From positions 1-17,701 of the forward strand of contig JAADFM010000008.1 of NCBI GenBank assembly GCA_013152845.1: DNA of 17,701 nt, written 5' to 3'. The notes beneath the pieces were generated by a model. It searched no databases. It saw only the letters and a program-made list of their open reading frames with translations, and was not told the DNA's origin. A program made the position numbers and the translations under genes. Positions 3,065 to 4,296 of the stretch are shown here, one piece after another. This DNA comes from Methanobacteriota archaeon. Its GTDB lineage: Archaea > Hydrothermarchaeota > Hydrothermarchaeia > Hydrothermarchaeales > JAADFM01. Positions within the stretch are counted from its first letter, which is position 1. Every line of letters begins with the position of its first letter.

Positions 3065-3895
3065 TCAAACCGTCCCGAAAAAGAAGGCCACCAGGGCCAT
3101 GGCCATGCCCTTTTTCAGGGTGGCCTGCCCCTTCCTGGCATTTTCGGGATTCGCCTTCTTTGTGGTCAGGAAGGGATGGAAGATAAGGGCATCGGTCAGC
3201 AGGATGAGGGCCAGGTACACACCCCTGTTCTTGACAAGGCCCAGGATGCCCGGCAGGGGACTGATGACCACTGCCGTCACCGCGAAGAATCCCGCTATGA
3301 AAAAGGCCTGGTTCAGCCCCATCCTCATGGGCAGGGTGACCACATGCCCCCTGTCCCCCTCGTAGTCCTCGATGTCCTTGAGGATCTCCCGGGCGGTGTT
3401 GACCAGGAAGGCGCAGATGGCGAAGACCAGGACTGCGGCCAGGTTCCCCATGCCGACGATACCGCCGAAGAGGAATGGGGAGGCCACAAGATAGCTCACC
3501 ACGAAGTTCTTCAAGAGCCCCCCGGCCTTCTTTATCCTGGAGCCGTAGGCATAGAGGAGGAGGGAATTGAAGCCGGCCAGGAGGAGGGCAGGGAGGTTGA
3601 TAACAGCAGAGATGGCAACCCCGGAGAGGAAAAGGCCCAGGCCGTAATAGTGGGCCGTCCTGAGCCCCATCCTCCCGGAGGGCAGGGGGCGTTCCGGCCT
3701 GTTCACCCTGTCGATATCGTAGTCGTAATAGTCGTTGATGACGTTGCCTCCACCGCAGACCAGGAAGGCCACGGCCGCGGCAAGGAGGGTGAGTTCCAGG
3801 GGGATGCCGCCCCCTGCAATCATGATGCCAAGGACCACGGCCACAGCAGCGATGAGGCAGTTGTGGGGCCTGAGAATCTGGATGTAGGGGTTCAT
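3065..3895 (-). CDS. UbiA-family prenyltransferase, probable digeranylgeranylglyceryl phosphate (DGGGP) synthase
   Basis: 276 aa, the usual size for archaeal DGGGP synthase, with eight or nine hydrophobic segments predicted by eye. The first Asp-rich motif is NDYYDYDID (54-62) followed by RVNRPERPLPSGRM; the second is REILKDIEDYEGDR (169-182). Both bind the Mg-diphosphate of the prenyl donor. The enzyme adds the second geranylgeranyl chain to GGGP in the membrane, the second ether bond of archaeal lipids. Other archaeal UbiA proteins (heme, quinone) are possible, but motif wording and length favour DGGGP synthase. The ATG at 3895 lies about 28 nt from a TATA-like ATTAAAA on the minus strand (3921-3927), so the mRNA is probably leaderless. 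The gene is divergent from the tRNA-Gln genes. Confidence 0.85.
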   Translation of the reverse strand: MNPYIQILRPHNCLIAAVAVVLGIMIAGGGIPLELTLLAAAVAFLVCGGGNVINDYYDYDIDRVNRPERPLPSGRMGLRTAHYYGLGLFLSGVAISAVINLPALLLAGFNSLLLYAYGSRIKKAGGLLKNFVVSYLVASPFLFGGIVGMGNLAAVLVFAICAFLVNTAREILKDIEDYEGDRGHVVTLPMRMGLNQAFFIAGFFAVTAVVISPLPGILGLVKNRGVYLALILLTDALIFHPFLTTKKANPENARKGQATLKKGMAMALVAFFFGTV

Positions 3896-3945
3896 GCAGG
3901 AAATATTTAAATGGGTATTGTTTTAATAACCTATCGCACAAGCAG
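3896..3945. promoter_or_regulatory. Divergent promoter region: DGGGP synthase gene (minus) and tRNA-Gln(CTG) (plus)
   Basis: This AT-rich stretch stands out from the GC-rich surroundings. It holds AAATATTTAAAT (3901-3912) and TTTTAATAA (3921-3929). Read on the minus strand, the second box is about 25-30 nt from the ATG of the UbiA gene. Read on the plus strand, it is about 21-25 nt ahead of the conserved GCACCACC start of the tRNA leader (3946-3953). The second tRNA gene has a matching pair of boxes at the same spacing. Confidence 0.5.
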
Positions 3946-3948
3946 GCA

Positions 3949-3970
3949 CCACCGAGCCCTAGCGAGGTGG
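3949..3970 (+). promoter_or_regulatory. Small hairpin with tandem G-A pairs in tRNA-Gln(CTG) leader
   Basis: CCACC (3949-3953) pairs with GGTGG (3966-3970). Inside it a GA step (3954-3955) faces a GA step (3964-3965), then GC (3956-3957) pairs with GC (3962-3963) around a CCTA loop. In the second copy the equivalent segment can form CACCC (4146-4150) with GGGTG (4163-4167) but lacks the G-A step. The position at the probable transcript 5' end suggests a structured leader. Confidence 0.45.
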
Positions 3971-3971
3971 C

Positions 3972-4016
3972 GGCTTTTGAGTGAGGCCAGCGGTAGCGCA
4001 GCCGAGCGAAAAAGCC
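3972..4016 (+). promoter_or_regulatory. Conserved 45-nt leader hairpin overlapping the 5' end of tRNA-Gln(CTG)
   Basis: The outer helix is GGCTTTT (3972-3978) with AAAAGCC (4010-4016). The next six positions GAGTGA (3979-3984) face GAGCGA (4004-4009): two tandem G-A/A-G steps flanking a G-C and a T-G pair. Then GGC (3985-3987) pairs with GCC (4001-4003), and after a short internal mismatch GCG (3990-3992) pairs with CGC (3997-3999) around loop GTAG. The last four bases, AGCC (4013-4016), are the first four bases of the mature tRNA, so this fold and the acceptor stem cannot form together. Function is unknown; it may govern 5' processing. Confidence 0.6.
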
Positions 4017-4085
4017 CCGTAGTGTAGCGGTCAATCATGCGGGACTCTGGATCCCGCGACGACGGTTCGAATCCGTCCGGGGCTA
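4013..4085 (+). tRNA. tRNA-Gln (anticodon CTG)
   Basis: 73 nt without an encoded CCA tail. The acceptor stem AGCCCCG (4013-4019) pairs with CGGGGCT (4078-4084), with discriminator A4085. The anticodon arm has stem CGGGA/TCCCG and loop CTCTGGA, giving anticodon CTG (4047-4049), which reads CAG glutamine codons. The T arm is GACGG-TTCGAAT-CCGTC. No intron is seen. In archaea this tRNA is normally charged with Glu and amidated by GatDE. It is transcribed from a box about 90 nt upstream through a long structured leader, unusual for archaeal tRNAs. Confidence 0.96.
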
Positions 4086-4100
4086 CTCATCTTTTCCAAA

Positions 4101-4141
4101 AGTAATTTAAGGCCGCCACCCTTATATTCAAGTGACTGAAA
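4101..4141 (+). promoter_or_regulatory. Probable promoter of tRNA-Gln(TTG)
   Basis: Between the two tRNA units lie AGTAATTTAA (4101-4110) and CTTATATTC (4121-4129). The second box lies about 17-20 nt before the conserved GCACCACC (4142-4149) and about 45 nt before the leader hairpin, the same geometry as TTTTAATAA in the first unit. A short T-rich stretch CTTTTCC (4091-4097), just after the first tRNA, could end its transcript. Independent transcription of the second tRNA is therefore likely. Confidence 0.5.
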
Positions 4142-4169
4142 GCACCACCCCGCGCCAGTTGTGGGTGTC

Positions 4170-4214
4170 GGCTTTTGAGTGAGGCCTGCGGCAGCGCAGC
4201 CGAACGAAAAAGCC
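4170..4214 (+). promoter_or_regulatory. Conserved 45-nt leader hairpin overlapping the 5' end of tRNA-Gln(TTG)
   Basis: This is the second copy of the leader element. GGCTTTT (4170-4176) pairs with AAAAGCC (4208-4214). GAGTGA (4177-4182) faces GAACGA (4202-4207), again giving two tandem G-A steps around G-C and T-A pairs; the T-A replaces the T-G of copy 1, so pairing is kept. GGC (4183-4185) pairs with GCC (4199-4201), then with one bulged C (4186) TGCG (4187-4190) pairs with CGCA (4195-4198) around loop GCAG. The 3' arm includes the first four tRNA bases (4211-4214). Confidence 0.6.
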
Positions 4215-4283
4215 CGGTAGTGTAGCGGTCAATCATGCCGGCCTTTGGAGCCGGCGACAGCGGTTCGAATCCGCTCCGGGCTA
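4211..4283 (+). tRNA. tRNA-Gln (anticodon TTG)
   Basis: 73 nt, no encoded CCA. Acceptor AGCCCGG (4211-4217) pairs with CCGGGCT (4276-4282), discriminator A4283. The anticodon arm is CCGGC/GCCGG with loop CTTTGGA, giving anticodon TTG (4245-4247) for CAA (and CAG) codons. The T arm is AGCGG-TTCGAAT-CCGCT. It is a paralog of the neighbouring tRNA-Gln(CTG): the D-arm region is identical, while the acceptor, anticodon and T stems differ by compensated pairs. The mature 3' end is only 13 nt before the ATG of the next protein gene. Confidence 0.96.
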
Positions 4284-4296
4284 CTGGAGATAGAAG

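Follow-up and report, generated by a model that had tools for sequence, protein, structure and literature searches.

For the E. coli tRNA-valV of the valVW operon, an inhibitory stem-loop in the 5′ leader, with an effect on RNase P, has been reported (PMC9433436). In Nanoarchaeum, a C/D box sRNA is reported to be joined downstream of a tRNA in a dicistronic tRNA-sRNA transcript (PMC3491384). A third element relevant here is the k-turn, which is bound by L7Ae and which carries a three-nucleotide bulge between a canonical helix and tandem G-A pairs (PMC6298567). The leader hairpins of the two archaeal tRNA-Gln genes analysed here share something with each of these systems. Like tRNA-valV, they are pre-tRNA leader stem-loops; whereas the bacterial leader has a reported effect on RNase P (PMC9433436), the Gln leader is archaeal, is predicted only, and forms a helix that includes four bases of the tRNA itself. 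By prediction only, a stable stem-loop stands beside the cleavage site, as in inhibitory pre-tRNA leaders. As in Nanoarchaeum, extra RNA would be joined to the tRNA in one transcript, but upstream of it and without a C box (PMC3491384). Our literature search, with most subscription journals outside its scope, found no archaeal leader of comparable kind. If real as RNA, this would be an archaeal case of a folded pre-tRNA leader in competition with the acceptor stem.

The window, that is, the whole stretch of 17,701 nucleotides analysed, is a contig of an archaeal assembly (G000) of 1.17 Mb in 177 contigs that is 62.7% complete. Two tRNA-Gln genes lie in tandem on its + strand and were identified by ARAGORN: tRNA-Gln(CTG) at 4013–4086 (Rfam RF00005, 62.4 bits) and tRNA-Gln(TTG) at 4211–4284 (64.1 bits), with the 3′ acceptor sequence GGCT at 4081–4084 and 4279–4282, respectively. 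The neighbouring gene at 3065–3895 on the − strand, which we take to encode a UbiA-type prenyltransferase, has its best match among the loci found in Ca. Pyrohabitans sp. JdFR-17 (51% identity), and in relatives tRNA-Gln(CTG) adjoins the same gene (for example at L033, L035, L036 and L037). The genome has genes for RNase P RNA (196.7 bits) and for two proteins of the L7Ae family.

Directly 5′ of both tRNAs, the first-pass annotation had described twin 45-nt hairpins, and these proved to be real. The hairpin, here called B, spans 3972–4016 and 4170–4214 (+), its final four nucleotides belonging to the tRNA. The two copies fold at −21.1 kcal/mol (z = −3.8) and −23.2 kcal/mol (z = −4.1), and equally good folds were obtained in 0 of 200 shuffles of each; the opposite strand folds more weakly (−15.4 and −17.5). 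Each copy consists of a GGCUUUU/AAAAGCC outer helix, a tandem G-A segment and an upper stem. The outer helix takes in AGCC, the first four bases of the tRNA, and the leader GGCT at 3972 and 4170 repeats the 3′ acceptor GGCT in both copies, just as the annotation had stated.

The G-A segment places GAGTGA (3979–3984) opposite GAGCGA (4004–4009) in copy 1 and GAACGA in copy 2, and the proposed tandem G-A/A-G pairs are possible in both. The copies share 42 of 45 positions, lie within a block of 88% identity and, judged from this similarity, are not independent. Of their three differences, none alters both partners of a pair. The change from U-G to U-A (position 4006 versus 4204), to which attention had been drawn earlier, does preserve pairing but is one-sided; A3989 to T gives the upper stem one more pair, and the third, T3994 to C, falls in the loop.

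The shared sequence is longer than the hairpin noted at first. An insert of about 67–69 nt, at approximately 3946–4012 in copy 1 and 4142–4210 in copy 2, begins in both units with GCACCACC, a sequence with no other + strand occurrence in the window than these two, at 3946 and 4142. It contains a second hairpin, A, at 3949–3970 (+) and, in a weaker form, at 4146–4167 (+). Folding of 3946–4016 gave z = −3.4, with 0 of 200 shuffles as good, and folding of 4142–4214 gave z = −2.0, with 7 of 200 as good.

Tandem G-A pairs had suggested an L7Ae-bound k-turn switch that controls 5′ processing, and L7Ae-family proteins are indeed encoded here. Such pairs are common to hairpin B and to k-turns, but the latter have the bulge (PMC6298567), while hairpin B has a symmetric 6 × 6 segment without it. 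For want of the three-nucleotide bulge we reject the k-turn/L7Ae reading of the loop, and the hairpin was not found in the relatives searched; a switch of this type is extremely improbable.

The reading that we prefer, with a probability of roughly 0.6, is that a recent, lineage-specific structured insert is common to the leaders of both tRNA-Gln genes and is removed by RNase P. Rather than an established RNA switch, we seem to have here a recently inserted segment that is first transcribed and later trimmed away. On this reading, each of the tandem genes would be transcribed with a 5′ leader that contains the insert and its two hairpins. The structure, its confinement to this genome among those searched, the displaced promoter and the predicted exchange of strands come from computation; where transcription starts, how the insert arose and was copied, its cleavage by RNase P and its effect are inferred from them.

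Transcription of the leader was assessed with a position weight matrix for the promoter, trained on positions −75 to −15 of the 26 other tRNAs with the Gln regions left out. The best BRE/TATA predictions lay far upstream, at 3899–3912 (+) for tRNA-Gln(CTG) (motif start −114, 11.2 bits) and at 4096–4109 (+) for tRNA-Gln(TTG) (motif start −115, 8.2 bits), as against best scores of −2.1 and −2.0 bits within −75 to −15. A score of 8.2 bits, taken unrounded, is reached by 6 of 17,687 + strand positions in the window. Of the 26 other tRNAs of the genome, 19 had their best motif, of at least 8 bits, between −34 and −57, a placement that the training range partly builds in; six of the 26 had no motif above 7.0 bits, and the best for tRNA-His was 8.4 bits at −14. 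In the wider tRNA sample, too, some genes have their best match beyond −80.

The TATA-to-start distance is usually about 25 nt. Given this distance and the places of the promoters, the transcripts are predicted to start at about 3934 and 4131, and the precursor would contain both hairpins. With the predicted promoter moved to −114/−115 by the insert of about 67–69 nt, transcription of the hairpins is probable. These far-upstream matches are support for a transcribed leader and not proof of one. For tRNA-Gln(TTG) there is also a second, weaker match (6.2 bits at −97), and a start from it would include hairpin B and perhaps only an incomplete hairpin A.

If the hairpin were instead an untranscribed element acting at the DNA level, the tRNA promoter would lie inside it, at GGCTTTTGA (−41 to −33). 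This sequence stands at the usual promoter distance and is the best match within −75 to −15, but it scores only −2 bits compared with 11.2 and 8.2 bits farther upstream, and the + strand folds better than its opposite; we give this explanation a very low probability.

The leader helix and the acceptor stem are mutually exclusive, as the earlier description had it. Which of them prevails depends, in the folding model, on the assumed transcript start. With the precursor folded from 3972 or 4170, the leader helix was favoured over the acceptor, with mean pair probabilities of 0.83 against 0.16 for the first copy and 0.76 against 0.23 for the second. From the predicted start, where other leader bases compete for GGCU, the preference of the full-length precursor reverses: acceptor against leader was 0.87 versus 0.12 for CTG and 0.63 versus 0.35 for TTG. 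At all three temperatures modelled (37, 60 and 75 °C) the acceptor had the advantage, by 0.4 to 2.2 kcal/mol, in folding energies that leave out tRNA tertiary contacts, modifications and the conditions of the organism; tertiary contacts should favour it further. In nascent chains from the same start, the probability of the leader helix that holds AGCC was 0.90–0.99 up to nucleotide 70. A lasting switch is doubtful given the preference from the predicted start, although a start at 3972/4170 gives the opposite.

Under the insert reading, the precursor would begin about 79 nt upstream of the tRNA, and during synthesis the leader helix would hold AGCC, the first four tRNA bases. The emerging 3′ acceptor GGCU would then displace the leader, the cloverleaf would form, and RNase P would cut the leader off. 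For the cell this would mean no more than a slight slowing of 5′ maturation, or some help with folding, and perhaps no effect at all.

The same exchange could have been selected as a co-transcriptional clamp that mimics the 3′ acceptor, either preventing 5′ mispairing until hand-over or slowing RNase P and so ordering the processing of the tandem tRNAs. The GGCT common to leader and acceptor in both copies would fit such a clamp, as would a hand-over predicted at the final nucleotides of the precursor, the smaller number of changes between copies in leader than in tRNA, and the reported inhibition of RNase P by the tRNA-valV leader stem-loop of E. coli (PMC9433436). However, a 4-nt match is a small coincidence, its two occurrences are not independent, comparable leader–acceptor pairing is common in shuffled leaders, and the hairpin is missing from the relatives searched. 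Selection for a clamp is unlikely on this evidence, and less likely still is the specific proposal of a folding clamp built into the leader as a copy of the 3′ acceptor strand, which would hold the tRNA 5′ end during transcription until the real strand displaces it, and so time RNase P cleavage.

How unusual the hairpin is was judged against other tRNA leaders. In the stretch from −41 to +4, the two tRNA-Gln leaders of the window rank first and second of 199, the other 197 having a mean of −5.5 (sd 4.0). A tRNA-Asn leader (L190) reaches −20 in this stretch without pairing to the tRNA, and a tRNA-Lys leader from the same order (L225, genome G006) forms a compact hairpin of −20.0 in which the first four tRNA bases are all paired. 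With leader length extended to as much as 70 nt, folds that pair the tRNA 5′ end and reach −20 kcal/mol were seen in 18 of 199 genes, the window's two counted, versus 4–10 per set in five sets of shuffled leaders. Longer leaders of tRNA-Gln(TTG) in relatives reached −29.0 (L024), −24.5 (L131) and −21.0 kcal/mol (L128). Pairing between leader and tRNA 5′ end is as such common, and structured leaders are not confined to the window's genome; the compact strong hairpin is unusual, not unique. The window's genome also has a second, divergent tRNA-Cys(GCA) (L117, G000:C31:8956–9027, − strand) with a leader hairpin of −18.9 kcal/mol that pairs the first three tRNA bases.

A covariance search in the genomes of relatives, of the kind that the first-pass annotation had proposed, gave no sign of conservation of the hairpin at the level of order or phylum. 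At E ≤0.1 the model of the two hairpins found only the window's own two in 23 genomes of the phylum, a set of 22 genomes besides the window's in which some are only 57–62% complete and none is of the same family. At E ≤1 among 20 genomes of the order there was one extra match, in G019, at chance level (17.2 bits). For comparison, the −41 to +4 stretches of 42 further tRNA-Gln genes, all distinct and not all from the phylum, folded at 0 to −16.5 kcal/mol, and at the −16.5 extreme the fold runs into an upstream tRNA gene. As a whole, the earlier interpretation is borne out in part: probable transcription, the exclusivity of the two helices and the presence of RNase P RNA and L7Ae-family proteins agree with it, but the k-turn/L7Ae link is not supported, a lasting switch is doubtful, and the lack of conservation in relatives that keep these tRNAs, which the annotation had named as a refutation, is what we observe at the level of order and phylum.

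The two tRNA-Gln types are, by their sequence features, old paralogs: among the genes listed, 10 of 17 of the TTG type, that of the window among them, have C31-G39, versus 0 of 21 of the CTG type. Because such isoacceptor features are old, the tRNAs would be older than the insert, which was therefore probably copied from gene to gene, by duplication or gene conversion. Between Gln(CTG) and Gln(TTG) there are 3 differences over 41 leader positions, compared with 11 over 73 in the tRNA. The similarity of the leaders is best explained by recent copying, and selection on the leader could also produce it.

No further copy of the insert was detected in its own assembly, where the only extra match was 14 bases long (E 0.96). 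A dispersed palindromic (MITE-like) repeat would be present in several copies; in this assembly, which is 62.7% complete, the two before the tRNA-Gln genes were the ones found, and a mobile element is no more than a possibility. The insert matched no phage or plasmid sequence, and viral contigs contained no exact 17-mer of it. Derivation from a decayed tRNA was rejected, as the inserts align to 82 tRNAs like shuffles (scores as good came from 50 of 100 and 35 of 100 mononucleotide shuffles). Membership of a known RNA family was likewise rejected: the non-tRNA Rfam matches at E ≤10 (E 0.51, 1.5 and 3.1) were far below gathering scores and lay over the tRNAs, with none over the leaders except that the E 3.1 match starts two bases 5′ of the second tRNA.

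A C/D box sRNA has a C box (RUGAUGA) near its 5′ end and a D box (CUGA) near its 3′ end. Scored as an exact box only, RUGAUGA is absent from 3934–4012 and from 4131–4210, and no Rfam C/D family matched over the leaders. These results bear on the idea that leader and tRNA form a two-gene transcript from which RNase P frees the leader as a small RNA. A predicted promoter of its own and a leader of about 79 nt would suit this idea, as would the dicistronic tRNA-sRNA precursors reported in Nanoarchaeum (PMC3491384). Yet neither leader has the exact box, no Rfam match at E ≤10 lies over the leaders but for the one that reaches two bases into the second, and the released leaders alone are barely more stable than shuffled sequence (z = −1.4 and −0.9), which leaves it with a low probability.

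Hairpin-bearing sequence also occurs in the tRNA-Lys(TTT) leaders (L175 and L157) of two Ca. Pyrohabitans genomes, JdFR-16 (G013) and JdFR-17 (G017), the congeners G014, G016 and G018 having an empty site there. The repeat, counting its copy in the leader, has 10 matches each in G013 and G017 at E ≤0.01, many of them incomplete, and G016 has a single match, elsewhere; G017 has one hairpin unit more than G013. A dispersed hairpin repeat, on this sequence comparison, entered the tRNA-Lys leader in these two genomes. It had no match in the window's genome. Both cases present a hairpin-bearing insert before a tRNA, missing from congeners in the tRNA-Lys case, but the tRNA-Lys repeat is a dispersed family whereas the Gln insert occupies one locus, and no sequence similarity between them was detected. 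In the best folds of the tRNA-Lys leaders, the first four tRNA bases are unpaired in G013 and two are paired in G017. The tRNA-Lys case, a precedent for the insert reading, suggests that hairpin elements can enter tRNA leaders in this order, and so leader length and structure may change fast without loss of the tRNA.

Other repeats were seen beside tRNA genes. In the window's genome, many tRNA genes (L096, L105, L118, L120, L101, L092, L093, L098, L099, L110 and L112) have recurring trailers directly 3′, of the form TTTGGATCCACTCG... or ...GGATCC...TTTTTGTGTAAAAAGG..., with variants. Several contigs of this genome end at tRNA genes, which suggests a repeat family behind tRNAs that breaks the assembly. 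A trailer repeat beside the tRNA-Lys of G013 has 9 matches in G013, 5 in G017 and 5 in G016 (E ≤1), and several matches of this type lie directly 3′ of other tRNA genes. At L119 (about 1440–1591), a tRNA-His gene seems to hold an insertion whose sequence, ACCAGGTAGGACCGTTTCCT, recurs almost unchanged about 40–60 nt upstream of the gene.
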